Positions 3,701 through 26,680 of a stretch of 64,000 nt of DNA are shown one piece after another. The position numbers were made by a program, and so were the translations under genes. The stretch covers positions 3,098,501 through 3,162,500 of the forward strand of contig NZ_CP087952.1 in the NCBI RefSeq assembly GCF_028752835.1, given 5' to 3'. The DNA is from Desulfosarcina sp. BuS5. GTDB taxonomy: Bacteria > Desulfobacterota > Desulfobacteria > Desulfobacterales > BuS5. Below the pieces are notes generated by a model. The model had not been told where the DNA came from. It worked only from the letters and a program-made list of their open reading frames with translations, and did no database searches. Every line of letters begins with the position of its first letter. Within the stretch, counting starts at the first letter, position 1.

Positions 3701-5780
3701 CAAGCAATTTGTCCAAATTTTTACGCGCATTTTCATTCCATGGTTCAACTTCAAGTATCTTGCTGTAAAATATTTTTGCATCTTCAAATTGCTGCAAGGA
3801 CTCACAAATATAACCGATAGCAAACAAAACCTCCGTATCCAGCGGGTCAGATTTTAGTATTTTATTATAAATCTGCAAAGCATCTTCCAAACGCCCCGAT
3901 TCCGCGCAATAGAAATCAGCCAGATTTTTTTGAAAAGTCATATTTTCCGACTCAAGCTCCGCAGCTTTTTCATAATGATCAAGCGCTTTTTCCTTATTGC
4001 CCTGCTTATAATATAAAACCCCCAAATCATTATGAGCCAGAGGAAAGTCAGGATAAGATTCAAGCAATTCTTCAAGTTTTTCAATCGCCTCATCAAATTG
4101 TTCTTCTTTAATTAATGGCTGAATACTTTGGTAAATCTCTTCAGGAGATCCAGATAGGCTATTATCACTTATAATATTACTTTCAGCACCCTGCCCCCTG
4201 ATTTCTGACAACTCTCTGCTTAGTATCTTATCAAGATTCTGCCTGGCATCTTTGTTTTGCGGCTCAATCTCAAGAACCCTGTTGTAAAATACCTTTGCAT
4301 CATCAAATTTTTGCAAAGATACACAGGTATGACCGATAATCAGCAGAATTTCCAGATTTTTTGGTTCTTTTGCAAGAATATCCACATATATTTTCAGCGC
4401 ATCCTCTACCCGCCCTTGCTCAACATAATAAAAGTCTGCCAGATTTTTTAAAGAAGTAATATTATCCGGTTCAAGCCGGGTTGCTGTTTCAGAAATATTT
4501 TTATCTGAAGAATGAACATCTTTGTACAAATTAAAAATTTTATTATTTTCTTCTCTTTGCTTTTCCCTGTTTGAATGTTCAATACTTCCGGGTGATCGCA
4601 GATAAAGTCCCAGGCGAACCGGAACATGTAAAAAATTCCTGGTTTGAGAAATTCTCAACCAAAATTCATAATCTCCCGAAGTAACAAATGAATCATCAAA
4701 ATAACCGTATTCATCATGAACATCCCTTCGCCACATAGGCTGAGGCCCTATAAAACATTCTTTATTTAACAAATCCTCCCTTTTCCAATTCCTCCAGTGA
4801 AAATAACCAGCCGGAGTGCAGTTTTGAAATGTCTCATTTTCTGTTTCGGTGATTACAACATCTGCATAAACAAGAGCAATCTCCGGAAGTGTTTCAAGCA
4901 TTTTATACATAACTTCCAAAGCATCCGTTCGATGCCTGTCATCCGTATTTGCATTTGTAATATATTTTCCGGATGATGCTTTTATACCTCTATTCCACGC
5001 TGCATAAACCGTTTCACGCTGATCGGTTCTTATATATTTGATATTGGAGTACTTTTCCTGAAATTCTTTGACAATCGCTTCTTCATTCTGCTCTGAACCG
5101 CTGTTAACAACGATAATTTCTAATCTGTCAGCAATTGTCTGGGCTTCCAGATCTTCCAGGCAACCGCGAATAAACCGCTCGGAATTATAAGTAGATACAA
5201 TGGCAGAGACAATATAATCATCTTTTTCCAGATTTTTTTCTTTTACAGCCAGCTCTTTTTCTTCTGGTTTTAATTTATAATATTTCAGTTTATCAAAATT
5301 TTGTTTGGCATCTTTGTTAGAAGGATCAAACTTAAGTACAATCTTATAAAAATCCATGGCATCATCAAATAATTGCAGAGTTATACAAATATGACCCATT
5401 ATCAGCAAAGTCTCGACATCCTTTGGATTGGCAGCTATAATTTTATTGTAAATCTGCATTGCCTCTTTTACCTGACCCAGTTCAACATAATAAAAATCCG
5501 CCAGGTTTTTCTGGAATGTAATATTTTCAGGCTGGAGCTTTGCTGCTTTTTGATAATGCTCCAACGATTTATCTTTATCGCCGGTTTTATAATACAAAAA
5601 ACCAAGGTCATTATGTGCTAACGCATAATCAGGATATAATGCCAAAAACATTTTTAGCGCACCGATTGCCTCTTTTTCTCTTTTGCTGTTGATCAACTTT
5701 TTAATCTCACAGTACAAAGCCTGAAGTGATTTTACAGAACCAACCGAATTATCATTATTTCCTATATCAGAAAATACCAT
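711..5780 (-). CDS. Giant TPR protein with three glycosyltransferase family 2 domains
   Basis: This is a 1689-aa cytoplasmic-looking protein with no signal peptide. Visible order: TPR repeats (~20-170); a GT2 domain (~187-405, starting VSAIVSTYNSERF, with acidic motif NTDDRH and acceptor-side motif GDYEFWLR); TPRs (~430-520 and ~545-690); a second GT2 domain (~743-980, with LMHDDVVVPENW); TPRs (~1010-1250); a third GT2 domain of SunS/WaaE type (~1273-1440, with DTGSTDRT and LDADEVL); and C-terminal TPRs to the end. Proteins of this architecture transfer several sugars to protein or glycan acceptors, with the TPRs likely organising the acceptor. The acceptor here is unknown. The TPR blocks are near-repeats of each other and of the C-terminus of the gene at 9796, which suggests internal duplication. 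It lies at the outer edge of the glycan cluster and shares its strand. Confidence 0.85.
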   Translation of the reverse strand: MVFSDIGNNDNSVGSVKSLQALYCEIKKLINSKREKEAIGALKMFLALYPDYALAHNDLGFLYYKTGDKDKSLEHYQKAAKLQPENITFQKNLADFYYVELGQVKEAMQIYNKIIAANPKDVETLLIMGHICITLQLFDDAMDFYKIVLKFDPSNKDAKQNFDKLKYYKLKPEEKELAVKEKNLEKDDYIVSAIVSTYNSERFIRGCLEDLEAQTIADRLEIIVVNSGSEQNEEAIVKEFQEKYSNIKYIRTDQRETVYAAWNRGIKASSGKYITNANTDDRHRTDALEVMYKMLETLPEIALVYADVVITETENETFQNCTPAGYFHWRNWKREDLLNKECFIGPQPMWRRDVHDEYGYFDDSFVTSGDYEFWLRISQTRNFLHVPVRLGLYLRSPGSIEHSNREKQREENNKIFNLYKDVHSSDKNISETATRLEPDNITSLKNLADFYYVEQGRVEDALKIYVDILAKEPKNLEILLIIGHTCVSLQKFDDAKVFYNRVLEIEPQNKDARQNLDKILSRELSEIRGQGAESNIISDNSLSGSPEEIYQSIQPLIKEEQFDEAIEKLEELLESYPDFPLAHNDLGVLYYKQGNKEKALDHYEKAAELESENMTFQKNLADFYCAESGRLEDALQIYNKILKSDPLDTEVLFAIGYICESLQQFEDAKIFYSKILEVEPWNENARKNLDKLLAEEMAGEISEKIEQKLCNTIAGSGEKAEPASEVNQDIKPLIAENGSENNALAATIIINCSSKKKELNNCLQSIKNNTFLNYNIIFINTGAAKGALKLMKRLASEDKDKKYSLIKKKKNSSLADAYNDGLKIAAGKYLVLMHDDVVVPENWLSDMIECMNIDSGIGLVGPISNNADRLQKSLKPGYQSFDEFFDYSKDFREVNRHRRVLARKLSGFCVMLKQEVVEKTGLFDGKFNTETVMMQDYCLRAIISGYQNVIAGDVYAHHNDDCRLIDSAFDNKDILNAEQKIFFEKWSGLDAKGVMGKGLIAFNSMERADEFSHKGDVEKAVDALLDGIGSSHNDRSLYVAAAKILAAAKQFQDALDTLDEIPQIKGVVNTQTSVMEEAGILELRGFCMAGLGRDDEAQEYAEKALLLYQDFAPALNLKGMLAYKQGNSLEAEKFFERAIAADPSYGEPYTHLGTMKWGAGDEEEALELYERGFILAPAVFDVAALYHAAMTAKEKFSRCEKFSRDAAALFPNNKKIEYMLIDLLIKQDKYDEAMENVEAAIVKFGIDDGILAAAGRVRDVLGPMEIDKSIKKDKTVSLCMIVKNEEKYLAKCLQSVKPVVDEMIVIDTGSTDRTNDLARVFGAKIYDYKWGNDFSDARNYSISMASGAWIFTLDADEVLSSIDYKAFRNIIDGNTDKLAAYLITTRNYTNKTNIIGWMINSGEYPDEEAGAGWIPTRKARLFHNDSRLRFDYPVHEMLDPSLLREEASVYICDIPVHHYGKLDENNCAEKGEKYYFMGVSKLEEMGDSEIALRELAVQAGVLERNEEAIDLWQRFLALDLRPDNKFIGDAYVNMASAYGKIGKYEDASMSAKKAMELFPNMKEAPYAYAYAELFRGNPEETISIIENLLIQVSEYPPARFLLVMAHICSGMKKKGMDGLALLKKTLNISAVAVACHEFAKGLFGAHKIEYALLLLESVMESNITSKDILSLFSECLEKRKKTFASEKAA

Positions 5781-5986: not shown

Positions 5987-7768
5987 TTAAAGTCTATGAA
6001 AACATATCCTCTCAAATCCCAATGCCACTACTACAAATTTTTGCAGCCGCAGGTTACCATGCCTTTGTTCAAGTTTTTCACCATACTCTTTTACCTGTTT
6101 TTTACCATCTTCCATTTGCGTTACAATTTCAGGTACCTGATACAGCTCATCTTTAGACAGCTTTTTCGCCTGTTCAGCGCTTAATCCTGCATTTTTAAGC
6201 TTTACAAACTTAAACTCAATCAAAACATCAAATACGTTGCCGTATCTTTTATCCGGCCTGATGATCATGGTTAGATCAGCATAGCGTCGGTCAATCTCTT
6301 TTTCAGAATCCATGATATAGATAATATCGTTGTAAAGCAGTGTCAGGAATGCTGTTTTTACAGTCAGCTCATTTGCCCACCTGTAATCCCTGTTATGAAA
6401 AACCTTGAAATATCTCTCCTCCATGAATCTACACAAAGGAGCCATATCTCCTTTCTGGTACACCAGTTCTGCAGCATCTCTGCCATCATCCCTGTCATCA
6501 GGCTCCGGCAAAAACATTTTTTGAACCCGCTCCACATATAGACTCTGCATAACGAGATTGGGTACTTTTAAAATTACTTTTAGTTCTTCAGTATCACCCG
6601 CAATGGTCAATACCCCGAAATAGTAAAGAAAAGAGACCAGGAATGTATTATCTCTGGATTTATCCGTCAGCATCTCTTCTATACCGAATCGTTTACTGAT
6701 TTTTTCTGCTACAACCTGCTGATCTTTTTCCATCAGGCTCATTAAAAGATCACTTCCTTTTGGAATTTGAGCAATATATTTAAGCTTTGCTTCATCTACT
6801 GCAAGATTGTCATCTAACATCTCTCTTGGATAACTGCATCTTTTTTCAAACTGTTTAAAAAAATATAAACAAAGAGTTGGGTTATAAATTTGTTCATTTG
6901 CTATATGGGAAAAAGTATAACCATTGTAATATGTCCGCATTAAACTTACAGCTTCTTTGATTTTTTCTTTTCCAAAACCACATTTATCAACAATATTTTT
7001 GAGTACATCCTCAATTTCATTCTGCTTAAAACCGCAGAAATCGTTAAACTCAGGTTCAAAATAAATATTTTCAGCAATATTATACCCGCTTGTAATATCG
7101 CTCATAACAACAGGTGAAACCCCTGTAATAAACACACGGTCAAACATAGAGCTTGAGGTTGAGGCTTTTACTGCTTTAAAAAAAGTTCTAAGAGGACCCT
7201 CTTCATGCACAAGCGCTTTGTACCTGCCTTCAGAGCTTTGAACCCCCATCATTACTGTATTGGCAAAATTATCATACTCATCTATTAGAAGATATACAGG
7301 ATATGGGGTCATGCGGGCTGAAGTAATAAGAGATTTCATTGAAAAAAGGGCATCTTCCCGATCGATCTCAATCGCAGGCAATTCAAATCCTTTATAATTA
7401 TAAACTTTATAAAATTCGATAATACATGCATTAATATGATTAAAAAGAGCCTTTTTAACATCTTCAGCGCTGCCGGTGGGATCAACACATGAAAAATCGA
7501 GCTTTAAAATAAAATATGAATTACGTAGATCAGTTGGATTTTTTCCGATCTTCAATCCACCAAAGAGCTCTTCAAATTCGTCTTTTTTTGCCACATCATA
7601 GTAATTTTCCAGCATGGAGAGAACAAGGCTTTTACCAAAACGCCTGGGACGAATAAAGAGTTGAAAATCCGAATTTTCAAGCAGAGGTATTTTATCTGTT
7701 CTGTCACAGTAAAAATAATTTTTAGTATTAATTTTTTTAAAATCAGATATACCGTATGGATATTTCAT
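5987..7768 (-). CDS. AAA-ATPase-like / PD-(D/E)XK nuclease-domain protein, copy 1
   Basis: The 593-aa product has an N-terminal AAA-ATPase_like domain: a variant P-loop in RPRRFGKSLVLSML (~40-53) and a Walker B-like segment VYLLIDEYDNF (~150-160). Its C-terminus is PD-(D/E)XK_9-like, with Asp in RYADLTMI and the E-x-K motif in DVLIEFKF (~520-535). The family is very common in anaerobes and often multi-copy. It is suspected to be a mobile or selfish nuclease, with no proven role. The start is supported by GGAG six bases before the ATG. It is in tandem with a close paralogue of identical length at 7868, 99 bp away. The C-terminal third is nearly identical between the two, while segments around residues 95-130 and 340-365 differ. 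Confidence 0.88.
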   Translation of the reverse strand: MKYPYGISDFKKINTKNYFYCDRTDKIPLLENSDFQLFIRPRRFGKSLVLSMLENYYDVAKKDEFEELFGGLKIGKNPTDLRNSYFILKLDFSCVDPTGSAEDVKKALFNHINACIIEFYKVYNYKGFELPAIEIDREDALFSMKSLITSARMTPYPVYLLIDEYDNFANTVMMGVQSSEGRYKALVHEEGPLRTFFKAVKASTSSSMFDRVFITGVSPVVMSDITSGYNIAENIYFEPEFNDFCGFKQNEIEDVLKNIVDKCGFGKEKIKEAVSLMRTYYNGYTFSHIANEQIYNPTLCLYFFKQFEKRCSYPREMLDDNLAVDEAKLKYIAQIPKGSDLLMSLMEKDQQVVAEKISKRFGIEEMLTDKSRDNTFLVSFLYYFGVLTIAGDTEELKVILKVPNLVMQSLYVERVQKMFLPEPDDRDDGRDAAELVYQKGDMAPLCRFMEERYFKVFHNRDYRWANELTVKTAFLTLLYNDIIYIMDSEKEIDRRYADLTMIIRPDKRYGNVFDVLIEFKFVKLKNAGLSAEQAKKLSKDELYQVPEIVTQMEDGKKQVKEYGEKLEQRHGNLRLQKFVVVALGFERICFHRL

Positions 7769-7867: not shown

Positions 7868-9649
7868 TTAAAGTCTATAAAAGCATATCCTCTCAAATCC
7901 CAATGCCACTACTACAAATTTTTTGAGCCGCAGGTTACCATGCCTTTGTTCAAGTTTTTCACCATACTCTTTTACCTGTTTTTTACCATCTTCCATTTGC
8001 GTTACAATTTCAGGTACCTGATACAGCTCATCTTTAGACAGCTTTTTCGCCTGTTCAGCACTTAATCCTGCATTTTTAAGCTTTACAAACTTAAACTCAA
8101 TCAAAACATCAAATACGTTGCCGTATCTTTTATCCGGCCTGATGATCATGGTCAGATCTGCATATCTGCGGTCAATCTCTTTTTCAGAATCCATGATATA
8201 GATAATATCGTTGTAAAGCAGTGTCAGGAATGCTGTCTTTAATGTCAGTTCATTTGTCCACCTGTAATCCCTGTTATGAAAAACCTTGAAATATCTCTCT
8301 TCCATAAACCTGCACAAAGGAGCCATATCCCCTTTTTGATATACTTTTTTTGCAGCATCTTTACCATCATCCCTGTCATCAGGCTCCGGCAAAAGCATTT
8401 TTTGAACCCGCTCCACATATAGACTTTGCATAACGAGATTGGGAACTTTTAAAATAACTTCCATATCTTCAGTATCACCTGCAATGGTGAGTACTCCGAA
8501 ATAATAAAGAAAAGAGACTAAAAATGTATTGTCGCGGGATTTATCCGTCAGCATATCTTTAAGTCCAAAACGATCTTCAATATCTGATATTACAACATCT
8601 TGATCTTTTTGCACCAGGTTCATTAAAAGATCTCTTCCACGGGGAATCTGAGCAATATACTCAAGCTTTGCCTCATCTACTGCAAGGTTTGAATCCAGCA
8701 TTTTTCTCGGATAGCTGCACATTTTTTCAAACTGTTCAAAAAAATACAAAGAAAGCGTTGGATTATAAATTTGTTCATCTGTTGTATGAGAAAAAGTATA
8801 ACCATTATAGTAAGTCTGCATTAAACTTGCAGCTTCCCGGGCTTTTTCTTTTTCAAAACCGCATTTATCAACAATATCTTTGAGTACATTCTCAATTTCA
8901 TTCTGCTTAAACCCGCACAGGTCATTAAACTCCGGCTCAAAGTAAATATTCTTTGCAATATTATACCCGCTTGTAATATCGCTCATAACAACAGGTGAAA
9001 CCCCTGTTATAAAAACACGGTCAAACATGGAGCTTGAAGTTGATGCTTTTACTGCTTTAAAAAAAGTTCTAAGCGGACCCTCTTCATGCACAAGCGCTTT
9101 GTACCTGCCTTCAGAACTTTGAACCCCCATCATAACTGTATTTGCAAAATTATCATATTCATCTATTAGAAGATATACAGGGTATGGGGTCATGCGGGAA
9201 GCGCTGACAAGAGATTTTAAAGAGTATAGAGCATCATCAAAATTGACTTTTATTTGAGGTAATTCATACCCTTTATATTTATAAAAAGCATAAAATCCTT
9301 CAATACAACCGTTAATATGATTAAAAAGAGCCCTTTTCACATCTTCAGCGCTTCCTGTGGGATCAACACACGAAAAATCAAATCTCAAAATAAAATATGA
9401 ATTACGCAATTCTGTGGGATTTTTTCCGATTTTCAAATCACCAAAGATCGCTTCAAATTCATCCTTTTTTGCCACATCATAATAGTTTTCCAGCATTGAG
9501 AGCACAAGGCTTTTGCCAAAACGTCTTGGCCGGATAAAAAGTTGAGATTTTGTATTTTCAAGCAAAGGTATTTTATCTGTTTTGTCACAATAAAAATATT
9601 TTTCCTTGATAATACTACTAAAATCAGAAATACCGTATGGATATTTCAT
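7868..9649 (-). CDS. AAA-ATPase-like / PD-(D/E)XK nuclease-domain protein, copy 2
   Basis: This is a paralogue of the preceding gene and also 593 aa: same P-loop variant (RPRRFGKSLVLSML), same LLIDEYDNF, same C-terminal IEFKF nuclease motif. The ribosome site AAAAGGAGCAGACA before the ATG is almost the same as in copy 1 (AAAAGGAGCAGGCA), so the duplicated unit includes the leader. Differences cluster in the N-terminal 30 residues, in the lid region (~95-130) and around residues 335-370. Other long stretches are identical, a pattern typical of gene conversion after duplication. Nothing in the neighbourhood assigns a substrate. Confidence 0.88.
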   Translation of the reverse strand: MKYPYGISDFSSIIKEKYFYCDKTDKIPLLENTKSQLFIRPRRFGKSLVLSMLENYYDVAKKDEFEAIFGDLKIGKNPTELRNSYFILRFDFSCVDPTGSAEDVKRALFNHINGCIEGFYAFYKYKGYELPQIKVNFDDALYSLKSLVSASRMTPYPVYLLIDEYDNFANTVMMGVQSSEGRYKALVHEEGPLRTFFKAVKASTSSSMFDRVFITGVSPVVMSDITSGYNIAKNIYFEPEFNDLCGFKQNEIENVLKDIVDKCGFEKEKAREAASLMQTYYNGYTFSHTTDEQIYNPTLSLYFFEQFEKMCSYPRKMLDSNLAVDEAKLEYIAQIPRGRDLLMNLVQKDQDVVISDIEDRFGLKDMLTDKSRDNTFLVSFLYYFGVLTIAGDTEDMEVILKVPNLVMQSLYVERVQKMLLPEPDDRDDGKDAAKKVYQKGDMAPLCRFMEERYFKVFHNRDYRWTNELTLKTAFLTLLYNDIIYIMDSEKEIDRRYADLTMIIRPDKRYGNVFDVLIEFKFVKLKNAGLSAEQAKKLSKDELYQVPEIVTQMEDGKKQVKEYGEKLEQRHGNLRLKKFVVVALGFERICFYRL

Positions 9650-9795: not shown

Positions 9796-12700
9796 TTACA
9801 TCTTCTGCACTTCACGAAGCCTTTCAATCGCATATGCATTACACGAATCAATTTCCAACACCCTGTTGTAAAACACCATTGCATCATCAACTTTTTTAAG
9901 GGATTCACATATCTGCCCCAAAATAAGCAAAGTTTCAATATCGGTTGTATTGGCATCTAAAAGCTTTATATAGATTTGCATCGCTTCTTCCACACGCCCT
10001 GCTTCAACAAAATAAAAATCAGCGAGATTTTTCTGAAAAGTAACATTCTCAGGCTCAAACCGAACCGCCTGCTGGTAATGATTCAACGCCTGTTCTTTAT
10101 TACTATCATTATAATACAAAACCCCAAGATCATTATGCGCCAGGGCATAATTGGGATATACCGCCAAAAATATCCCCAAAGCGCCAATTGCTTCTTTTTC
10201 TTTTCCGCTGTTGATCAACTTTTGGGCTGTTTGATATAGTTTTTCAGGTGAGGCAGTGCCTGTTTCCTTCTGCCGTGCTGTATTCTGGCTTCTGCCTTCT
10301 GAGCTCTGGCCTCCGACCTCTGGCTTTTGACTTCCTGCGCCTATCATTTTATTCCAAATCCGCTCATATAAATCCCTGTATGCATTCGCCTGCACCTCCA
10401 GAGCATATTCTTTTTCAACCTTTATTCTGCATTCCTTTAAAAAATCTATACCACTGCTGATTGATGATATAACCCAGTCAATTCCTTCAATTAATCCATT
10501 TATATCTTTAGGCTTTACCAAATAACCGGTCTTTTTATGCTCTATCATATCCGGTATCCCACCTATATCAAAGCCGACTACAGGCACACCGCAGGCCATT
10601 GCCTCTACAACGGTATTGGGAAGATTATCTTCGAGAGAGGGAAGAACAAATACATCTGCCGCGCTGTAAGCCAACGCAAGTTGTTCCTCATCCGCTATTG
10701 AACCAAAATTCATAACTGAATATTTTGAAGAAATTTTGATACCATTAGGCAAACTTCCAAATGTAAGAATAACCATATCATTTCCTATTTTCAGAGGAAT
10801 TTTATTTAAAGCCTCTATCAGATATTTAAACCCTTTTCTTTCATTTAAAACAGAATCAGCGCCAAACAGGATCACTTTTGCAGATTCTGGAATATTCAAC
10901 TCTTTACGAATCTCTGCTTTAGGATATGGCTTAAAGATATCAATAGGGAATCCATTTGGAATAATGGTAACCGGAAACGAAGAAAAGAGTTTGCTTTCAG
11001 CAGCGCATTTGCCAAGCCACCGGCTTGGTGTAACAATATTTATGTTTAAGAACTTATAAACATCATATTTTTGCTTCCATACATGGGATGAAAGATCTGT
11101 GTCATTGTCAGATCCCAACTGCGGACATGCGCCGCAAGAAGTCTTATATTTCACACAGTCGCCCGCATAGTGACACCCCCCTGTAAAAGGATTCATATCA
11201 TGAAGCGTCCATACAATCGGTTTGTTCCCTATCGCCAAAGGAGCGCTCGGACAATCCATGCTCCCTGCAATCCAGTGGAGGTTAATTATGTCTGCCTCCT
11301 GTATCTCGCGGACACGATCGAGCCTTACATCTGAAACAGCGTCTGTAAACATTTCAAGCCCTACAGGTCTATTGGGATATTCAGATATGAGCTTATGCCA
11401 CCTTCCGGCCTGCTGATTCCACACAGGAGAGTTATATGCGGAAACATCCAGACAATTTGTTATTCCCCTGGAATAATCATTGGGTAACGCTTTAACACTC
11501 GGATCGCCGCTTTTTTTATTCAGCACAAGCATGGTGGAATCCACACCGACTGCCTGCAAACCCTTATGCAGCCTGTATGCTGCCTTGCCAGCACCTCCAA
11601 AATCCTGCATGCAGAGATTAACAACATTTATATTTCTTAGTTTATGCCTTAAGAGCATGGCATCTGTTTTTTGTCTCCAATTCTTATTGCTTATATCGAA
11701 GCGGTCAAACATGAATTCTAATTTATTCTGATCCTTCAGAAATCCTTTAATTTTTCCACCACCGGTATAATCTATCGCCACAAACGGGACGTCTAATTTT
11801 TCGGCAAACAAAACAGAATGGAATCGCATGCATACATTAAATTTGCTTCTGCTCATAACCGATAGAATATCCTGAGGGGAATAGACCTTATTTCCTATCT
11901 TGTAGCTACCTTCTTGCAAATAGGTCTTAGCAAATCTTCTGGCGAAATCTCTGTCGTCTTGGCCAACAACAAAAGTATGCATTGGCATCAGAAGGGGCTT
12001 GAGACCTGTCTTTTTCCTAATATTGCAAAGCATCTCTCCCAGTTCTTTTTCAAAACGTTCTCTGAACGCTAAAAAATCAGTTGAAGACATACCGCTTGCA
12101 TACTCAAATGTTATTTCTCTCAAAAAACATGCAAAATACTCTTCATCATGAATTGTCTGATCCTGAAGAGTTTCCTTTTTCCAGCCTTCAACAAAGCCGA
12201 CTGCTGGGTCACCCGTACAAATGGCGTCTATTCTGCCTGTATTCTCAGCAACCCAAGAGATGGATGTATTATCCCTAAGCCTAATCTGTGTGCTTAACCT
12301 TAATAGCTCTTTAACGGCTAATATGTGTTCATCTGCGATAAGAGGCCCGATTCCACAACCCTCAATGATACATGGTATATTAGCTTTCCTGGCTTCAAAA
12401 AAGGCTGTAAGAACAAACCCGAGTGGTTCCATCCCCATCAATGGCCCTCCACCCATAACAATGGCATCGGCAGATTTGCATGCTTCTATATATTCTATCG
12501 AGTATGTCTTTACGATTCTTATATCTTCTGTTCCAATCTCATAAAGTGTTCTTCTGGTAACAAAAGGATACAAACTTGCTATCGTGATTTGTATTTGTGG
12601 GTTTGCGTTCTTTAGTCTTTGAATTATGTCACTAATGATGGCTTTATCTCCAGCGGTTTCAGTGCCGTACCAGCCAACAATCAAAGGCTTTTTGAACTTT

Positions 12701-14643
12701 GACCAATCAAGCGGTATCGGTGAAGACGAGGGAAGGGTAGTGGAGTTTATGAGACTTTGCCGGACTGACATTTTTTTTCTTAGAAACATATCTTCTTTAA
12801 ATTGCTCAAGTGACTTTTTTGATGGTGGAGCATGATAATCATGAATGCAATTACTACAATATTTTTGAATAATGGACTCGCGTAATGGTATGTTTTTCTC
12901 ATAAATAATTTTTGCCGATTTCTCAAGGCAGGAGTCCAAGATTGGAGATTTGGGCGAACAAAATAGCAGATTACCCTTACTGTCAAGACCGAGAGCTTCT
13001 GACCGATAAGGACAGCCGCTTTCGCGGGGCTTTCCTTCAAAAATCATCTGACGAATATTTCTATAAGTTTCCTTAACATTTGGAGATGTTTCATAAAAAA
13101 GTTCGAGTTTGCTAAAAAATAGTGCAATTTGATATCTTTCATCGTCGTCAAAGTTTCTAATATATGCTTTCAGGTCGCTATTATAAAGCCGGTTAATAAA
13201 CTCACCTATCCTGAATTTTCCAAGGACATTTTCTCTTTTACAGAAATCAAGCACCTCGTCCAAATGCCAAACATTTTGTTTGATAACAGTGCACCCTATA
13301 GATAGAGGAATATTGGTATTATCACGGATATAACGTATTACTCGAAGCGCATTTTCAAAAGCTCGTTCCCTGCCTCTCACAGCGTCGTGTACTTTGCCGA
13401 TGCCATCAAGAGAAACCATAACATTAAACGGCAAATTGGCCTCCCTACATACTTCATTGCATTTTGTTATCTGTTTAATGACCTGTTCAGCAGCCAACGC
13501 ATTTGTAATCAACCCCGTTCCCTTAATGCCATCTTTACCAGCTATTACGCGGAATATTTCCGGCAGGTCTTTTCTGAGGGTTGGCTCTCCCCCGCTGACA
13601 CCCAGATATCTCAAATTGCTAAACAAAGGATCACGCAGGATTGTCGCCAACTCTTCGGGGGTAATCTCCTTTTCCCGTTTTTGCTCCCATACCCGGCACA
13701 TCTTGCAACGTGAATTGCAAATGTCATTTACCATAAAATTCAAAGTCATTGGAAGCATACCGGACAAATTCATTTTAAGGTCCTCCGAAGGGTCTGGGTG
13801 AAAATATTTATAAAATATCTGATCTATTTTAAAGTCATAATTAACCTTGTCAAAAAAACGCACTCTCTTCTTATTTAATAAGTATTTCATCCCAAATTTA
13901 TTGCTTATGCCACAATGCATACCACTACCATCATGCCCGATATTATTAACAAATGATTCAATAGGTTTAATTGTATATAAATTATTTTTTATCGAATGAA
14001 ACACTATTTTATAATCCGCAGCATCTAATTTTCCATCTTGGATTTGTTTTAATCCATTGATTAATTTAGGATGTATTTTGTTTATTTTTCTATAAAGCGA
14101 AATATCATTCATTACCTCATTATATGCATCATTATATTCTACAATTTTAAAAAAATCTCTGTCATTCCATGTTGCACAACCCCAACCATTAAAATAGACA
14201 CTTAAATAATACTCATACTTGTAACTTTTAGGAAAATTAACTGGTACATTATATCCACTGATAGCAATTATATTTTTATCATGCTCATAAAACTCCAATG
14301 AGTCATTCATAAACTGCAAAAATCCTGAAGCAGTAACAATATCATCCTCCATAGAAATAACGCGACCATATTTATCAAGTAATCGCTTAAAACCATCACG
14401 AGTATTTTTTAGATAATTATTCGTTTTTCGCTCAAAAATGTTAACAGTTTTAAAACCATCAATAGTATGAATATACTCTCTGAGCCTTGCAACTTTTTCT
14501 TCATCACCCAACTTGGGGGCATCAGAAAATATATAAAGTTCACTTTCTTTTGCCAAAGTATTTTTTTGCAAGGCTTCAATAGTCTGTTTTAAATGATTTA
14601 TTCTTGTGTATGCACATACTCCAATTGGTGCTAAATTCCTCAT
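9796..14643 (-). CDS. Five-module glycan enzyme: GT, radical SAM/SPASM, polysaccharide pyruvyl transferase, GT4, TPR
   Basis: A product of about 1615 aa. The ATG at 14643 is preceded by GGAG with a suitable gap; a GTG one codon upstream is also possible. Modules in order: a GT-A-like glycosyltransferase (~1-290, MEDDIV acidic motif); a radical SAM domain with C-x3-C-x2-C in CNSRCKMC (~310) and VSGGEPT; a SPASM-like Cys cluster (FCSPKS, YCSNCIHD, ~585-640); a polysaccharide pyruvyl transferase (CsaB-like, ~655-990, GWYGTETAGDKAI and MGGGPLMG); a GT4 glycosyltransferase (~1000-1435, LHDMNPFTGGCH, ending with the E-x7-E region LPNTVVEAMACGVPVVGFD); and C-terminal TPRs (~1475-1610). It probably performs sequential steps on one surface glycan. 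The linker before the TPRs is low-complexity. The fusion is continuous in one frame, so it is not an annotation artefact of neighbouring genes. Confidence 0.85.
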   Translation of the reverse strand: MRNLAPIGVCAYTRINHLKQTIEALQKNTLAKESELYIFSDAPKLGDEEKVARLREYIHTIDGFKTVNIFERKTNNYLKNTRDGFKRLLDKYGRVISMEDDIVTASGFLQFMNDSLEFYEHDKNIIAISGYNVPVNFPKSYKYEYYLSVYFNGWGCATWNDRDFFKIVEYNDAYNEVMNDISLYRKINKIHPKLINGLKQIQDGKLDAADYKIVFHSIKNNLYTIKPIESFVNNIGHDGSGMHCGISNKFGMKYLLNKKRVRFFDKVNYDFKIDQIFYKYFHPDPSEDLKMNLSGMLPMTLNFMVNDICNSRCKMCRVWEQKREKEITPEELATILRDPLFSNLRYLGVSGGEPTLRKDLPEIFRVIAGKDGIKGTGLITNALAAEQVIKQITKCNEVCREANLPFNVMVSLDGIGKVHDAVRGRERAFENALRVIRYIRDNTNIPLSIGCTVIKQNVWHLDEVLDFCKRENVLGKFRIGEFINRLYNSDLKAYIRNFDDDERYQIALFFSKLELFYETSPNVKETYRNIRQMIFEGKPRESGCPYRSEALGLDSKGNLLFCSPKSPILDSCLEKSAKIIYEKNIPLRESIIQKYCSNCIHDYHAPPSKKSLEQFKEDMFLRKKMSVRQSLINSTTLPSSSPIPLDWSKFKKPLIVGWYGTETAGDKAIISDIIQRLKNANPQIQITIASLYPFVTRRTLYEIGTEDIRIVKTYSIEYIEACKSADAIVMGGGPLMGMEPLGFVLTAFFEARKANIPCIIEGCGIGPLIADEHILAVKELLRLSTQIRLRDNTSISWVAENTGRIDAICTGDPAVGFVEGWKKETLQDQTIHDEEYFACFLREITFEYASGMSSTDFLAFRERFEKELGEMLCNIRKKTGLKPLLMPMHTFVVGQDDRDFARRFAKTYLQEGSYKIGNKVYSPQDILSVMSRSKFNVCMRFHSVLFAEKLDVPFVAIDYTGGGKIKGFLKDQNKLEFMFDRFDISNKNWRQKTDAMLLRHKLRNINVVNLCMQDFGGAGKAAYRLHKGLQAVGVDSTMLVLNKKSGDPSVKALPNDYSRGITNCLDVSAYNSPVWNQQAGRWHKLISEYPNRPVGLEMFTDAVSDVRLDRVREIQEADIINLHWIAGSMDCPSAPLAIGNKPIVWTLHDMNPFTGGCHYAGDCVKYKTSCGACPQLGSDNDTDLSSHVWKQKYDVYKFLNINIVTPSRWLGKCAAESKLFSSFPVTIIPNGFPIDIFKPYPKAEIRKELNIPESAKVILFGADSVLNERKGFKYLIEALNKIPLKIGNDMVILTFGSLPNGIKISSKYSVMNFGSIADEEQLALAYSAADVFVLPSLEDNLPNTVVEAMACGVPVVGFDIGGIPDMIEHKKTGYLVKPKDINGLIEGIDWVISSISSGIDFLKECRIKVEKEYALEVQANAYRDLYERIWNKMIGAGSQKPEVGGQSSEGRSQNTARQKETGTASPEKLYQTAQKLINSGKEKEAIGALGIFLAVYPNYALAHNDLGVLYYNDSNKEQALNHYQQAVRFEPENVTFQKNLADFYFVEAGRVEEAMQIYIKLLDANTTDIETLLILGQICESLKKVDDAMVFYNRVLEIDSCNAYAIERLREVQKM

Positions 14644-14686
14644 CACAATATCTCCTTTGATGATCAAACGCTGGGTTGCAGCAATT

Positions 14687-16507
14687 TCAAAGCCTGATTA
14701 GCAAATCATCAGACAGTAGCTCTGATATACTCAGGACTTTTTCAACTTGCGGATACTCATCTTCAATTGGTTTTTTTAGACCAGCAAAATATTGTACTAC
14801 TGAAACTACAACGCATTTTATCTCTTCATCAGATAATATTTCAGGCGAATGTATTACATGGCCAGACACTTCAACACCTTGCCTTACTTCAGATTTGTCT
14901 ATATAAAAAATGTTTCTGTTTAAATCCAAGTTTAGCTTTTCAGAAAAAGTATAAAAATACGAATTAATACCCCAAAACGCGATTTTTCCATATTTATTCA
15001 ACAGTTCATTAATGTTCTTTCTAACTTTATTAACAATATTCTCAGGAACAGGAGCAATATGTCTTTTCCCACAATTGTTACAAGCTAAAGTTTCTAAGAT
15101 AAAAAGTTTCACCTTTTTCCATTTATTTGGACTATTGCACGACACGCAATTACCAGTTATGTCAATACTTGCATTTTCATAATCTATTTGAGTAATTTGT
15201 ATTTCATTTGGAGTTTTGTGCGTCAAACGTGGTAATGATAGTATTTGTCCAAACAACCATGAATAATCTTCATCTGACATCTTTTTTGATAGTTTGACAA
15301 GAGGACAAGCATCTCTTATATATTGCACTGGATCATTTATTAATCCTTCCAAACGTGCATATTTATAAAGGGCGGTTCCTGGATATGTAATTATTGCACT
15401 GAGTTGAATCTCATAATTAATATGTTCCTTCCACCAATTGATAGTTTTTGTTGCTGTTTCAATTGTCTCTGCTACATCTCCAAAAATAAAAACTCCCTGT
15501 ATTCCCATTCCAGCATTATATACCAATTTTAAAGCTTTTTCCGTTTGTTCAATTGTTATTTTCTTTTTTATACTTTTTAATATTTCGTTATCCGCACTCT
15601 CAATTCCAAATCCAACAACTGCACAATTAGACTCTTTTAGTAAATGTACTAATTCTGGAGTAATGTCTGGAACGCGAAAATTTGCAAACCATTTGATCTT
15701 ATATGATTTTATTCGATTACAAAATTCTTCAATACGCTTCATGTTGCGGCCAAAAAGTTCATCTTCTATAGAAAGGAACTTAACCCCATATTCTTTCACT
15801 AAATAATTTATTTCTGCAAAAACGCTGTCTAAAGAACGCTGTCTGAATTTTTGGCCACTTGGATGAAAACAAAACGTGCACTTAAATGGACATCCCCTAC
15901 TTGTTATTATTGGTAAAGTGTTGTATTCACACATACCCAGTGTATTCGGAATTGAATCTAATAATTTACCAATTTCAAGTCCGCTGTAGTCAGGGAATGG
16001 TATTTCCTCAACATTTATAGGCGTTACTTCTCCTTTTGTTTGCTTGTAAGAGTTATTGTCTTTGTAAACAACCCCTGGAACTTGTTTTATATCTCTCCCA
16101 TTCTCAAGTGCTTGACACAGTTCACAACTTATTATCTCTCCTTCACCAATTACTCCATAATCTGCAAATTCCAGTGCTTCCATTGCATGTTCTGGTGCAC
16201 TTGTTATGATTCCACCACCTACTATGGTTATTACACTTTGTGTTATTAGTTTCGAATTTCCTATAATATCTCTTATTGAGCCGTATTGCCCAGTCAATCC
16301 ACCTGTTAAAACAATGTCAATTTTGTATTCATAAATTACGTTTTTCAATATGTCATATATTGATCCATGTATATGATTTAGGTTTAATGTGAACAAGCTG
16401 AAACCCGCCTTCTTTAAGCTGGCAGATACATAGGCAATACCTAATGGTGGTTGGTACCAATCACCAATCTTGTTCACTACTCTAGGCACAGCTATCAATT
16501 GATTCAT
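14687..16507 (-). CDS. B12-binding-type radical SAM protein with zinc ribbon and Rossmann-like tail
   Basis: The 606-aa product has an N-terminal cobalamin-binding-like Rossmann domain (~1-130, PPLGIAYVSASLKKAGF). A radical SAM core follows, with C-x3-C-x2-C in SRGCPFKCTFCFHPSG (~200-210). Then come a four-Cys zinc-ribbon-like segment (CVSCNSPN ... CNNCGKRH, ~455-480) and a C-terminal Rossmann-like domain (~495-606, IAFWGINSYFY ... FYIDKSEVRQG ... VVVSVVQ). The class B radical SAM family includes methyltransferases and other C-C or C-P bond-forming enzymes; the substrate is unknown. GAGG sits six bases before the ATG. The C-terminal domain resembles those of the genes at 16588 and 25455, so the three may recognise a related substrate. 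Confidence 0.83.
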   Translation of the reverse strand: MNQLIAVPRVVNKIGDWYQPPLGIAYVSASLKKAGFSLFTLNLNHIHGSIYDILKNVIYEYKIDIVLTGGLTGQYGSIRDIIGNSKLITQSVITIVGGGIITSAPEHAMEALEFADYGVIGEGEIISCELCQALENGRDIKQVPGVVYKDNNSYKQTKGEVTPINVEEIPFPDYSGLEIGKLLDSIPNTLGMCEYNTLPIITSRGCPFKCTFCFHPSGQKFRQRSLDSVFAEINYLVKEYGVKFLSIEDELFGRNMKRIEEFCNRIKSYKIKWFANFRVPDITPELVHLLKESNCAVVGFGIESADNEILKSIKKKITIEQTEKALKLVYNAGMGIQGVFIFGDVAETIETATKTINWWKEHINYEIQLSAIITYPGTALYKYARLEGLINDPVQYIRDACPLVKLSKKMSDEDYSWLFGQILSLPRLTHKTPNEIQITQIDYENASIDITGNCVSCNSPNKWKKVKLFILETLACNNCGKRHIAPVPENIVNKVRKNINELLNKYGKIAFWGINSYFYTFSEKLNLDLNRNIFYIDKSEVRQGVEVSGHVIHSPEILSDEEIKCVVVSVVQYFAGLKKPIEDEYPQVEKVLSISELLSDDLLIRL

Positions 16508-16587
16508 TGATTACCTCGTTATAATCAGAATATATTTTAGCGTTCTGGAACTGTTTAGTACTACTAATTAGTCTTATTCGTGTTGAT

Positions 16588-18969
16588 CTAAAGAATCAAC
16601 TTTTTTATAAGGCGTGACTCGTCAATTCCAAGTGCTAAGAACGCATCGAAGATTATTGGAAAACCCTGGACTGCGGCGATTACAATTGGGATGTCTGAAT
16701 CTAATAGCGCAGTAGGCGCAAAGATGTTATGATCTAAAAATTGCCCCCCAATCTTTGATGTTGTCGAATCTACAAAAAACTCCACATCGACGTGCTTGAA
16801 AAACGACGTCTTCTCAAGCAAATATTTTGCCTGCCAACCAGCCCCCCAAATCGCCACCGACTTGTAAGAGGCTTTGTCTGCCAAGACATGCCCAATGCCC
16901 ATATCTACGATCTTAGATTTAATTAAATTCTCAGAATGAGAGTGTATTTTACCTAATCGTTGCCGTAGCAGATCGTCAAAATATACCAGCCGGCATCCTG
17001 CATCAGTTAAAAGCCCATACATAGCGATCATCAAGATCGCTTCATCAATAGAAACAATTTCTTTTTTAAAGTCGGTGCTGATCTGGTAGTTACATCCAAT
17101 CAAGTTAAAATTTTTCATAAAAGGAATAAAGGACTTGACTTCTTCGATAGAAGAATTTTCTTCGGTAAAAATGTACTTGATGGTTACTTTAGCGGAGTTC
17201 GCAGACGCGTACTTTTCTAGATTGGCTAAAGCCTCTCGCAATTTAGATTGCCCCCGCACAAGCAGATATGTTTCATCAGTCCCTGCATCAATACTTGATG
17301 TAATACTTACTTTATCTTCCGCAAGCAAATGCTCAATTGTTTCGGAGTATATAACTGCATTGGTTAAAACCCTCTGATTTGCACCTGGCAATTGATCAGC
17401 AAGCTTCTCAATAAGCGGCGCAAAACCTTTGTCTAATACAGGCTCACCACCACCCCAAACAACCACACTATAACTATCCAGTACATTTTGATTTAGGAAA
17501 GATTCTATAAGCGCTTTGACGTCGTATCTCGGTTTCTTGCCGCCATAATAGGTTTCACTGCAATATGAGCACCGCAAGTTACATATCGAATGATGCTCAA
17601 AAGATAAATATTTTATTTCCAAATTCCTTAAAGAACCCCATTCCTTAAATTCAAGAAAGGGACAACCATCACAATCAGATTTTTCACCACTATTAATTTT
17701 TGAAAAAAGTTTTTGTTTGGCTTCAAGTATATTTTGACTGCTCACACGAGCGGAATCACATTTGGACATATCTAATAGGATCACATCACCATGCATTTCT
17801 CCGTCAACAAAGAATCGCTTACAACATGTTCGTATTTGGTCTGGCGCCAGAAAGATCGAATGATGCAAATCAATACAGCTCCAACTTTTGTTCACAACTT
17901 GTTTTATGTATTCGGAAATAGCAATAGCCTTCAATTTTGCTGTCAGTCGTTCATCTTGCATGGTCTTAAGAAAATGCGATGCGATTAAAATATACTTTGT
18001 TTTTTTTGTCGGCAACTCAAAAAAATCTTCAATTGAAACAAAATAATCAATCCAACATCGATATAATGCCGCATAAAGTTCAATTGCACGCTTATTGGAG
18101 GAGTTATGCCGGTAAATTTCTCTAACTCTTGTTGCAACTGCACCAGACAATCCTAATTTGTAATATAGAAAAAATTCTTGCCATCCGTCAGGATCATTGG
18201 TGACAACAAAAGCACCTATCTCCTTCCAAGCTCGCATGAACCCTTCAATATGCTGAACTGAAACAGTGTTGACTATTGAGTTTGGTCGCTGCCATTTAAA
18301 ATATAATACTTCATCCAGATAACAAACTTTTCTTGCGTACCAGTAAACCTTAAAGATATAGTCTACATCTTCGTGATATCCAGTAGCAAACTGTAGGTTG
18401 TTTTCTATAATTAGTTTCCTTCGAATAGCAGTATAGATAACTGAGCCATCCATATGCAAAGACAGGTATTTTTTAATTAATTGATTTTTACTCAATTCAA
18501 GCGAGCTATGATCACGCCGACCAGACACTTGAAACTGTTCTGAACTAAATCTTGCTGAGTCGTACTCCCAGTTAAAACCCACAGCATCCAGAAAAGCACT
18601 GTTGTTCATATCTAAGAAAACTTGTAATTTAGACAAAGCTTCCCGATGTAGATAATCATCACTATCGACAAATATAACCCACTTGCCTGTAGCTTTGCTT
18701 AAACCAACATTTCTGGCTATTCCAGGGCCAGAGTTTTTGGGCGTTTTTGTAACAAACAAATTCTTATTATTCGTTGCCAAACGAGATGCGATTAAAAAGG
18801 TAGAATCTGTAGAGCAATCATCTACGAGTATGACTTCGAAGTTTCCCCTTTTTAGACTCTGATTCAATGCGCTATAGAGGCAATTTTCTATGAAGTCTTC
18901 TGAGTTGTACGCTGGAATAATAATCGAGAACTGCACAGAGTTTCTCATCCTTGGAGCTGAATCAATCAT
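16588..18969 (-). CDS. GT2 glycosyltransferase fused to radical SAM domain and Rossmann-like tail
   Basis: I place the start at the ATG at 18967-18969 because AGGAGG lies five bases upstream. An in-frame start at 19056 would overlap the upstream gene and has no such site. The product is 793 aa. It has a GT2 domain (~10-260, SIIIPAYNSEDF and DXD in FVDSDDYLHREA), a helical linker, an extra Cys pair (CDGCPF, ~435), a radical SAM core with CNLRCSYC (~460) and VVWGGGEPVLD, and a C-terminal Rossmann-like domain (~700-793, VAIWGAGWQAKYLLEK ... VEFFVDST ... IVIAAVQG). It probably both transfers and modifies a sugar, or modifies the acceptor. It is the downstream partner of the dehydrogenase gene. 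Confidence 0.83.
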   Translation of the reverse strand: MIDSAPRMRNSVQFSIIIPAYNSEDFIENCLYSALNQSLKRGNFEVILVDDCSTDSTFLIASRLATNNKNLFVTKTPKNSGPGIARNVGLSKATGKWVIFVDSDDYLHREALSKLQVFLDMNNSAFLDAVGFNWEYDSARFSSEQFQVSGRRDHSSLELSKNQLIKKYLSLHMDGSVIYTAIRRKLIIENNLQFATGYHEDVDYIFKVYWYARKVCYLDEVLYFKWQRPNSIVNTVSVQHIEGFMRAWKEIGAFVVTNDPDGWQEFFLYYKLGLSGAVATRVREIYRHNSSNKRAIELYAALYRCWIDYFVSIEDFFELPTKKTKYILIASHFLKTMQDERLTAKLKAIAISEYIKQVVNKSWSCIDLHHSIFLAPDQIRTCCKRFFVDGEMHGDVILLDMSKCDSARVSSQNILEAKQKLFSKINSGEKSDCDGCPFLEFKEWGSLRNLEIKYLSFEHHSICNLRCSYCSETYYGGKKPRYDVKALIESFLNQNVLDSYSVVVWGGGEPVLDKGFAPLIEKLADQLPGANQRVLTNAVIYSETIEHLLAEDKVSITSSIDAGTDETYLLVRGQSKLREALANLEKYASANSAKVTIKYIFTEENSSIEEVKSFIPFMKNFNLIGCNYQISTDFKKEIVSIDEAILMIAMYGLLTDAGCRLVYFDDLLRQRLGKIHSHSENLIKSKIVDMGIGHVLADKASYKSVAIWGAGWQAKYLLEKTSFFKHVDVEFFVDSTTSKIGGQFLDHNIFAPTALLDSDIPIVIAAVQGFPIIFDAFLALGIDESRLIKKLIL

Positions 18970-18998
18970 TATTGCCTCCTCTTGTCGGACAGAATCCG

Positions 18999-20183
18999 TC
19001 ATAAACCCTCTCCATCCAAACCGGAATCTTGAATCTGGCCACAAACCGCCTGCCAAGCCTTCGTATCCGTCGATTTAGTCATGGCCTCAATCAGTCGGAG
19101 ACCCCCCAAAGCTAATTCGGTACCGAATACCTCTTCAGACTTCCACTGGCCTGTTGCCCTGTATTGACGAAGACAATCAGCAATATCACTGTAAAGATTG
19201 GCAAAGGCTTCGATAAAACCAGCAGGGTGGCCGGCCTTGAACCTGTTATAACGCCGCATATTGGCAACCTCAACCGAAGAGGCACGATCCATAATCTCCC
19301 TGCGCCCATCCGAATAGGACAGCACCAATTCCTCTGGACACGCCTGGTACCACTCTGCTGAACATTTTGAACCATAGATTCTCAATCTCAAACCATTTCT
19401 GTGTCCAAGCGCCGATTTGCTGAACCACATCTGACCCTGAACGCCTTCCGAATACCGGCAAAGACAGGTGACATTATCAATGACTTCAGAAAACCACCCA
19501 TAACTACCCTGGGCAGATACAACCTCGATGGGTTTTTGTCCGATTAGATAATCAATTAACTGATGCAGATGAACTGCCAAATCAAGATGAATTGTCGGCA
19601 CCTGCCCATCGGAAAGCCTCCATGATTGCGGCACTGGCTTATTACCATTAGCATCTACTCTGATATATCCTTCCTGAGGCATCTCGGCCTGAAAGTGCAG
19701 AATTTTACCAAGCGTACCTTTTTGGATCATGTTTCGTAGTTCACGAACCATTGGATATCCGGAGTAATTGTACGTCACGGCAAGAAATCCATTCTTACTG
19801 TTTCGAACTTTAAGAATCTTTTCAGCCTCGGCGCTATTGGTTACCAAGGCCTTCTCACAAATCACAGGAAAGCCCTCGTTCAGGCAAGCTATAACCATTT
19901 CGTAGTGCGATGGGGTAGGCGTAAGGATAACAATCGCATCAAGGCGCCCCTTTTCTTCCCTGAGCATATCCTGCCAATGATCATACACATGATCAGGAGA
20001 AACGCCGTATGCTTGAGCAGTTTCCCGATTCCGTTGAGCATCGACGCTGAAACAACCTGCATCCAGAGTCCACTGGTTATCCATAGCACAGGATACGAAA
20101 TGCGTATATCCAACCGCAGAATTGAGAGAACCACCAATAAAACCAAGCGATAGTGGCGTCGATCTATCTATCTTACCCAGCAT
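18999..20183 (-). CDS. Gfo/Idh/MocA-family NAD(P)-dependent sugar dehydrogenase
   Basis: About 394 aa. The ATG at 20183 has GAGG five bases upstream; a GTG two codons earlier is the alternative. The N-terminal Rossmann fold reads SLGFIGGSLNSAVGYTH, and the catalytic-Lys motif appears as CEKALVTNSAEAEKIL (~95-110). The C-terminal Gfo/Idh substrate domain follows. The family oxidises or reduces nucleotide sugars and inositols. Here it most likely makes a keto-sugar for the DegT aminotransferases. It is in line with the genes on both sides on the minus strand, with a 29-bp gap to the GT2-radical SAM gene and 116 bp to the ATP-grasp gene. Confidence 0.85.
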   Translation of the reverse strand: MLGKIDRSTPLSLGFIGGSLNSAVGYTHFVSCAMDNQWTLDAGCFSVDAQRNRETAQAYGVSPDHVYDHWQDMLREEKGRLDAIVILTPTPSHYEMVIACLNEGFPVICEKALVTNSAEAEKILKVRNSKNGFLAVTYNYSGYPMVRELRNMIQKGTLGKILHFQAEMPQEGYIRVDANGNKPVPQSWRLSDGQVPTIHLDLAVHLHQLIDYLIGQKPIEVVSAQGSYGWFSEVIDNVTCLCRYSEGVQGQMWFSKSALGHRNGLRLRIYGSKCSAEWYQACPEELVLSYSDGRREIMDRASSVEVANMRRYNRFKAGHPAGFIEAFANLYSDIADCLRQYRATGQWKSEEVFGTELALGGLRLIEAMTKSTDTKAWQAVCGQIQDSGLDGEGL

Positions 20184-25454: not shown

Positions 25455-26162
25455 TTACACCATTTTTAAATTCGGGACAGCCACAACAAATCGCCCGCAC
25501 CAGTCTCTGATATAACTTAATTGCTCCATTATCTCATCTTTAATATTCCACGGCAGTATAAGCACATAATCCGGCTTGAGTTTTTTAATTTCATCTTCCT
25601 TTACCACGGGAATATGGCTCCCTGGCAAAAACATGCTCTGTTTATGAGGAAGAGCATCAACTACAAATTCAATCAAATCTTTTTTAACACCGCAGTAATT
25701 TAAAAGAGTATTCCCTTTGGCCGCCGCTCCGTAAGCAGCAACCTTCTTCCCCGCTTTTTTCTGCTCCATAAGAAATGAAACAAGCGCATACTTAACCTTA
25801 TCCACCTTTTGCTGAAAATTAAGATAATAATCTAAGGTAAGCATCTCTCTTGCCGCCTCTTTTTCCAACAGTTCAACAACATTTGGCGTTACAGGTTTTG
25901 AATTGTCATTATCATGTCTGGCATAGATCCTCAATGAACCACCATGGGTTGGAAGCTCCTCCACGTCAAAGATGGCCAGGCCGTGCCTTGCAAAAATTCT
26001 GCATACTGTATGAAATGAAAGGTATGAAAAGTGCTCGTGATATATGGTGTCAAACTGATTCTCTTCGATAAGACGCATCAAATGAGGAAACTCCATGGTT
26101 ATAACACCATCATTTTTCAAAGCGATCTTGAGGCCGGCAACAAAATCGTTTATATCCGGCAC
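25455..26162 (-). CDS. Sugar C-methyltransferase, C-terminal part (separated by frameshift)
   Basis: This 235-aa frame carries the second half of a NovU/TylC3-type NDP-sugar C-methyltransferase: VITMEFPHLMRLIEENQFDTIYHEH (SAM domain end with the conserved H-E-H) and the C-terminal Rossmann-like domain (KVAAYGAAAKGNTLLNYC ... FVVDALPHKQ ... YVLILPWN). The frame is open back to about 26204 and reads ADLIIGNNVLAHVPDI, which continues the upstream part exactly when shifted by one base. These enzymes add a methyl branch at C3 or C5 of a keto-sugar. By itself this piece lacks the SAM-binding motif I and the zinc site, so it is unlikely to be active alone. Confidence 0.8.
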   Translation of the reverse strand: MPDINDFVAGLKIALKNDGVITMEFPHLMRLIEENQFDTIYHEHFSYLSFHTVCRIFARHGLAIFDVEELPTHGGSLRIYARHDNDNSKPVTPNVVELLEKEAAREMLTLDYYLNFQQKVDKVKYALVSFLMEQKKAGKKVAAYGAAAKGNTLLNYCGVKKDLIEFVVDALPHKQSMFLPGSHIPVVKEDEIKKLKPDYVLILPWNIKDEIMEQLSYIRDWCGRFVVAVPNLKMV

Positions 26163-26188: not shown

Positions 26189-26680
26189 TTAAATCAGCTT
26201 TTTTTCTTCTTGCACGAGTCTTTCCGCAAGGTCAGCACTAAAAAATTCCTCTAATGTCTCAATTCCTTTTTCTCTGGCCGCCTGAGCAGTGTTGGCACTC
26301 GGTTCAATCCCAAGACAAGGGATCTGTTTTTCCAAAAAATATTGCAACAAGTATCCGTCATTTGAGGCGATTTCCATCACATGAGATGCCGTGCTTAACT
26401 CCAGCCTGCCTGTAATCATATCTACATATTTTTTTGCATGTTCAAGCCAGGACGTGGAAAAAGAGGAAAAATAGGCATACTCCCGGTTAAATATTTCGCC
26501 GGATTTTTTGTATTCGCCCGTCTGCACCAGAAAACATTTGTCACAGACATAGAGTTCTATCGGATAAAAGACTTCAGGTTCGTTCAATTGATCTTTGGTC
26601 AAAAAAGAGTTGGATGCTGGAGCATTGATCAGATTAATAAATACATGGATCAATTCATGGTGGCAAAATCGGCATTTCAT
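26189..26680 (-). CDS. Sugar C-methyltransferase, N-terminal part (separated by frameshift)
   Basis: This 163-aa frame holds the zinc-binding domain (CRFCHHE ... CDKCFLV, residues 3-53) and SAM motif I (VMEIASNDGYLLQYF, ~100-115). It then stops after EEKKLI. The downstream frame continues the enzyme. Together the two parts span about 408 codons, the usual length for the family. The break is at an A7 run and phased as GA[A AAA AAG], the same heptamer that drives -1 frameshifting in dnaX. It overlaps the truncated epimerase stop by one base. It may be a pseudogene, a switchable gene, a programmed frameshift or a one-base assembly error. Confidence 0.8.
   Translation of the reverse strand: MKCRFCHHELIHVFINLINAPASNSFLTKDQLNEPEVFYPIELYVCDKCFLVQTGEYKKSGEIFNREYAYFSSFSTSWLEHAKKYVDMITGRLELSTASHVMEIASNDGYLLQYFLEKQIPCLGIEPSANTAQAAREKGIETLEEFFSADLAERLVQEEKKLI
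26198..26206 (-). other. A7 homopolymer / A_AAA_AAG heptamer at the methyltransferase frame break
   Basis: Minus-strand codons read GAA GAA AAA AAG CTG ATT TAA in frame 0. A -1 slip on A AAA AAG gives GCT GAT TTA ATT ATT, the true continuation. An eighth A would also restore one frame. I see no strong downstream stem-loop and only a weak SD-like AGAGGA about 40 nt upstream. Confidence 0.7.

Follow-up and report, generated by a model that had tools for sequence, protein, structure and literature searches.

The window, that is, the whole 64-kb stretch of Desulfosarcina sp. BuS5 DNA analysed here, carries on its minus strand a long gene in which five modules follow one another in a single chain, preceded on its 5′ side by two further genes of radical SAM type:

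9796..14643, minus strand: whole fusion gene, 1615 aa, with an ATG at 14643 and an in-frame TTG at 14667
13795..14643, minus strand: module 1 (residues 1-283), GT13/GNT-I-like GT-A glycosyltransferase, by profile match to GNT-I; G+C 28.6%
13240..13725, minus strand: module 2a (residues 307-468), radical SAM core by Pfam, with C309-X3-C313-X2-C316
12847..13014, minus strand: module 2b (residues 544-599), twitch-type auxiliary cluster motif of 4 Cys, from the alignment
11767..12651, minus strand: module 3 (residues 665-959), PS_pyruv_trans by Pfam, the pyruvyl transferase (PST), with candidate PEP-site residues R790, R842, R940, H942 and K964
10339..11643, minus strand: module 4 (residues 1001-1435), GT4 glycosyltransferase by Pfam, with D1339-X7-E1347
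10264..10338, minus strand: linker (residues 1436-1460), G+C 56%, overlapping a 7/14-bp-period repeat at 10266-10331
9799..10263, minus strand: module 5 (residues 1461-1615), TPR tail, with Pfam TPRs at about 1493-1599
14687..16507, minus strand: upstream gene, B12-binding radical SAM protein, G+C 33.5%, in the same AT-rich block as module 1
16588..18972, minus strand: further upstream gene, GT2-radical SAM fusion by Pfam

The minus strand is free of stops across the 1615 codons, which bears out the single-frame, five-module chain proposed by the sequence-only reading. Counted from the TTG, the longest open frame covers 9796-14667; translation likely begins at position 14643, where an ATG follows a Shine-Dalgarno-like AAGGAG at a distance of 8 nt. 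Pfam and profile searches recover the glycosyltransferase, radical SAM, pyruvyl transferase, GT4 and TPR parts that had been named beforehand, the SPASM portion being the exception (see below). The catalytic and motif sites checked across the modules are all kept, apart from the GT4 motif, which reads D-X7-E, and the activity of each module would be plausible since the checked sites are intact. AlphaFold, run on residues 283-1000 as a single sequence, gave a model too poor for use (mean pLDDT 44).

Taken as a single sequence, module 1 matches the Pfam GNT-I family (PF03071) with an E value of 9e-4 and 18.6 bits, against a cut-off of 25.4. The same family is matched at E up to 1 by 8 of the 9 aligned members, the best of them at 1.6e-8, and a nine-relative profile run against solved structures finds part of the domain in GNT-I 1fo8 (E 2.7e-4). 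The EDD motif (E99-D100-D101), D238 and H243 are invariant in all nine aligned GT-As, window included. In composition, module 1 differs from the radical SAM, PST, GT4 and TPR parts, which have a G+C content of 39-41%: only three out of 1264 sliding windows of 849 bp fall at or below 29.5% G+C, all three overlapping module 1, and the most AT-rich ~850 bp of the whole stretch overlap the GT-A. The AT-rich block runs on through the upstream gene and stops at the GT-A/radical SAM joint. Such an overlap with the most AT-rich part of the window suggests that the GT-A was recently acquired from an AT-rich source. The stand-alone relatives of the module (seven aligned) extend some 15-45 residues beyond the C-terminus of module 1.

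The radical SAM core of module 2 is recognised by Pfam (Radical_SAM) at E 2.7e-19, with 70.4 bits against a cut-off of 29.5, and the auxiliary motif that follows reads C544-X12-G557-X4-C562 ... C596-X2-C599. Cysteines C309, C313 and C316 of the core and C544, C562, C596 and C599 of the auxiliary motif are invariant in the five sequences aligned (window, L054, L055, L061 and L092), so that the loss of Fe-S cysteines, which the sequence-only reading named as grounds for rejecting its proposal, is not what we find. A full SPASM domain holds seven auxiliary cysteines, whereas a twitch holds four, within a motif of the form CX9-15GX4C...CX2C. With four conserved auxiliary cysteines instead of seven, and no SPASM Pfam match up to E 0.01, the full SPASM assignment was dropped and the earlier label gives way to twitch. 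The NF033640 model scores 45.3 bits on this module, below its cut-off of 170, though its twitch motif fits. Among solved structures compared by sequence, the peptide maturase SkfB comes best (E 1.5e-10), followed by MoaA and by cytosylglucuronate decarboxylase, a sugar-nucleotide enzyme matched by the radical SAM part at E 2.5e-5.

Module 3 matches Pfam PS_pyruv_trans (PF04230) at E 5.5e-29, with 102.4 bits against a cut-off of 25.3, and the GWYGTET and GGGPLM motifs, together with R790, R842, R940, H942 and K964, are invariant in the three PSTs aligned, window included. For CsaB, R148, H308 and K328 are reported as critical to PEP binding, R306 as a docked contact and an R207 variant as having lost activity (PMC10435577). 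Measured to the histidine in the window and in CsaB, the distances are 2 and 2 residues for R940/R306, 100 and 101 for R842/R207, and 152 and 160 for R790/R148, with the lysine lying 22 and 20 residues after the histidine. Matched by spacing only, these residues of the window PST likely correspond to the PEP-site residues of CsaB. The CsaB model TIGR03609 covers residues 654-971 with 94.4 bits, below its equivalog cut-off of 213, and a sequence search of the module against the PDB gave chance-like matches only, with no relevant solved structure.

The GT4 of module 4 is matched by Pfam Glycos_transf_1 over residues 1242-1393 (E 1.1e-25; 90.6 bits against a cut-off of 26.4). The usual motif of these enzymes is E-X7-E, and its first position is occupied by Asp in five and by Glu in two of the seven GT4s aligned, the window belonging with the former. 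Between the GT4 and the TPR tail, the 7/14-bp-period repeat is translated as protein within the linker. The TPRs of module 5 score above the Pfam cut-offs, and related ones with up to 60% aa identity are present in a neighbouring 1689-aa protein (711-5780), which combines three GT2 stretches with many TPRs.

Regarding the surroundings, the fusion gene and the two genes directly upstream (within 14687-19056) place three radical SAM proteins in a row. The upstream context is that of glycan assembly, with two DegT aminotransferases, a Gfo/Idh/MocA protein, an ATP-grasp protein and C-methyltransferase parts, and other fused glycan proteins are present nearby and in relatives. The C-methyltransferase lies in two frames, a Methyltransf_13 part at 26189-26680 and a Methyltransf_14 part at 25455-26162, and is possibly split or broken. 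An IS1-type transposase (27449-28396) separates the glycan genes from lipid A/BamA-like genes. On the other side of the fusion gene, two tandem genes for 593-aa AAA-ATPase_like/PDDEXK proteins occupy 5987-7768 and 7868-9649. Four complete copies and a cut one are found in the adjoining stretch on the low-coordinate side of the window (L094, 1-8612), and the six complete copies share 87-98% aa identity. In L094 the array comes after a 172-bp piece left from the TPR tail (93% identical), at the 146-bp distance also seen in the window, which suggests a segmental duplication.

The occurrence of the different parts was followed in overlapping samples of 58, 291, 291, 395, 36, 22, 389 and 23 genomes. 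Absence from one such sample does not amount to absence, since the class sample (291 genomes) shows one carrier of the radical SAM-PST pair, G137, and misses another, G287. Matches spanning both radical SAM and PST occur, among those listed for 291 genomes searched, in three genomes of the order, that of the window included. In G137 the match (44% over 688 residues, in a 751-aa frame) corresponds to a 741-aa radical SAM-PST protein (43%) whose gene overlaps the next one, a GT4 with 39% identity to module 4, whereas in G287 an 805-aa radical SAM-PST, matched in two pieces, stops directly before a GT4 (41%); starts were called mechanically in both. Each of these free-standing proteins has ~23 extra residues ahead of the aligned start. 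At E 1e-30, a PST profile picked out four of 389 genomes sampled from the order, namely the window's, G137, G287 and G730, the last one with a PST (28%) truncated by the contig start and, 44 bp further on, a GT4 (37%), the assignments in G730 being confirmed by Pfam. All three of the other order members in which a close PST was detected thus have a GT4 next to it. Within the same phylum, genome G632 has radical SAM (29%), PST and GT4 as consecutive separate genes, confirmed by Pfam, the GT4 being distant (27% over part) and a radical SAM/SPASM gene coming next, and a genome of the same genus, G573, encodes a 1301-aa PST-GT4-GT4 protein (L093, 6367-10272), likewise confirmed by Pfam, in which PST and GT4 were joined independently. 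Neither was counted as a fused radical SAM-PST case.

The GT-A shows an association of its own, since in three of six loci (L056-L058; L028, treated below, is left aside) its relative lies one gene upstream of a GT4 relative on the same strand, the intervening gene coding for a GT2 in L056 and for a methyltransferase in L057 and L058. In L062-L064, which also have a GT-A relative, there is no such GT4 within the stretch examined, and no other locus among those examined joins a GT-A to radical SAM-PST. The sequence-only reading had regarded the combination as unknown within one chain. This holds in so far as the genome samples searched contain, among the matches listed, neither a second five-module chain nor a described family with the same order; its parts, on the other hand, do recur elsewhere. 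Viral contigs gave 46 pattern stretches, none related to the fusion protein, and of the 16 matching plasmid records none reaches 80% query coverage, the 10 listed ones matching the radical SAM part only. No close PST was detected in G001-G003, which belong to the same genus and family and have assemblies 66-83% complete. A tree of 12 GT4 rows, from which L009 and L011 were omitted as presumed repeats of L058 and L056, is mostly unresolved and does not bring together the GT4s of radical SAM-PST loci: it groups the GT4 of L055 with the GT-A-linked GT4s (99/99) and not with that of L054, so a single ancient radical SAM-PST-GT4 operon is not supported.

A second line of comparison is provided by L028, a contig of a metagenome-assembled genome titled Deltaproteobacteria AUK140 and labelled as Myxococcota by the tree tool. 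It encodes a 928-aa protein whose GT-A (32% to that of the window) runs directly into GT4, linker and TPR parts with 82% aa identity. Next to this gene lies that of a 1370-aa fusion of several methyltransferase domains with TPR (1444-5556). The DNA identity between both genes is 87% and starts at gene position 3023, within the first GT4 strand. By NG86 counts, dN/dS is 0.19 for the GT4 and 0.35 for the TPR, and this half of the gene is under purifying selection. The dS values, 0.52 for the GT4 against 0.17 for the TPR, indicate that the tail was seemingly shared later than the GT4. The L028 genome shows no radical SAM-PST, its three matches in that region of the query covering the radical SAM part only; with no close PST seen in G001-G003 either, even near relatives may do without the full chain. 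The extra ends of the free-standing relatives of module 1 and of radical SAM-PST are what would be expected from fusion by recombination, not from the loss of one stop codon. Altogether, we read the gene as a mosaic in which a recurrent glycan-assembly set has been fused to a transferase, probably acquired, and to a TPR tail.

Our preferred reading, to which we assign a probability of roughly 55%, is that the gene encodes one multi-enzyme chain building a surface glycan, with a recurrent core fused to a GT13-like transferase and a TPR tail. The core would be the twitch radical SAM-PST followed by the GT4, for which relatives use two or three genes side by side and which is fused here. At its N-terminal end the GT13-like transferase, whose source was probably AT-rich, would have been joined, and its C-terminal end would have gained a TPR tail resembling others in this genome. 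Most likely, the radical SAM part would oxidise, epimerise or deoxygenate a nucleotide- or lipid-linked sugar and the GT-A and GT4 parts would add two residues onto a lipid-linked chain. The PST would place a pyruvate ketal from PEP onto one of these residues, while docking of the chain on partner proteins would fall to the TPR tail. We infer the acquisition, the substrate, the order of the steps and any channelling between them. The coupling of sugar transfer, radical chemistry and pyruvyl capping advanced in the sequence-only reading is plausible from gene order and conservation only.

Unlikely, though worth serious attention, is that recombination in a fast-changing glycan locus simply joined the modules in frame, each of them working alone or some having decayed, with no coupled pathway behind. 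The AT-rich module 1 with its shortened C-terminus, the other company in which the GT4-TPR half stands in L028, the partial copy of the tail elsewhere and its low dS would all be accommodated in this way, but the recurrence of the radical SAM-PST-GT4 order across other genomes and the conservation of the checked residues speak against it. The radical SAM part might also mature a peptide instead of a sugar, an improbable option for which SkfB, as the best solved-structure match, and weak matches to several peptide-maturase models could be invoked; these models nevertheless match far under their curated cut-offs, a sugar-nucleotide enzyme matches too, and the relatives are located among glycan genes.

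The remaining alternatives question the single chain itself. Translation could restart at the in-frame ATG of residue 291, located at the GT-A/radical SAM junction 8 nt after a GGAGG, and yield two proteins. We find this hardly probable, as GGAGG also precedes mid-domain starts at TTG 404 and at TTG 735/ATG 736/ATG 738 (one shared site), so that the residue-291 site is not special; as a candidate internal start it was rejected for being no better than these. In a codon-shuffle control, ATGs with at least 6 matches averaged 1.05 in 300 shuffles and none was observed, an indirect comparison given that the residue-291 site scores 5. An assembly artefact, which the nearby repeats (the tandem AAA-ATPase genes and the copied piece of TPR tail) might have favoured, is extremely unlikely: the genome was assembled in two contigs, the GT-A/radical SAM and PST/GT4 joints keep the frame and coincide with domain edges, and a second genome has the same GT4-linker-TPR half, under purifying selection.

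Returning to the preferred reading of a single glycan-building chain, its most interesting part is the rare but recurrent pairing of radical SAM with PST, followed by a GT4. This pair is uncharacterised: no paper on radical SAM together with a pyruvyl transferase was found, absence from the literature searched not meaning absence from print, and the matches listed for radical SAM, O-antigen, glycosyltransferase and twitch literature include none on the subject by title. As a tentative idea, which we hold possible rather than probable, the pair could be bifunctional, with radical remodelling of a sugar creating, or being required for, the pyruvylation site and the GT4 adding the remodelled sugar, the window then holding the whole line in one polypeptide. 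If both activities act in sequence, this would tie radical chemistry to the capping of bacterial glycans with pyruvate; the two-domain relatives of 741-805 aa are small enough for purification and testing. The gene also illustrates the in-frame modular shuffling of surface-glycan enzymes. It is real and mildly surprising, but since the radical SAM-PST pair recurs elsewhere it falls short of an entirely new type of system. The sequence-only reading, which saw here the strongest candidate in the window for an undescribed enzyme system, is thus partly supported: radical SAM-PST beside GT4, GT-A-GT4-TPR, a PST fused to GT4s and separate neighbouring genes all exist in other genomes.

Compared with known systems, module 1 shares with GT13/GNT-I (PF03071) the region of the EDD motif and, through the profile of its relatives, a match to 1fo8, and differs in being bacterial, short and, on its own, below the Pfam cut-off. 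Twitch radical SAM enzymes such as those of NF033640, the MoaA-like proteins and the PTO1314 family (TIGR03961) have CX3CX2C and CX12GX4C...CX2C in common with the window protein, which scores under the cut-off for every radical SAM model found within the 25 families listed of 76 and stands apart by its covalent joining to a PST. The WcaC-type transferases share PF00534/PF13692 with the GT4, whose match to the WcaC model is weak (44.7 against a cut-off of 784.85). Among the composite proteins, that of L028 has the GT4, linker and TPR but a different GT-A and no radical SAM-PST, whereas the L093 protein also unites PST and GT4 domains within one chain, with a PST only 25% identical, a second GT4 and no radical SAM, GT-A or TPR match. 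Finally, CsaB of Paenibacillus alvei (PF04230/TIGR03609) has PEP-site residues spaced much like the conserved R-x-H of the window PST, the lysine after it and two arginines before it, while the window PST differs from it by its 94 bits against the cut-off of 213 and by its fusion to radical SAM and GT4.
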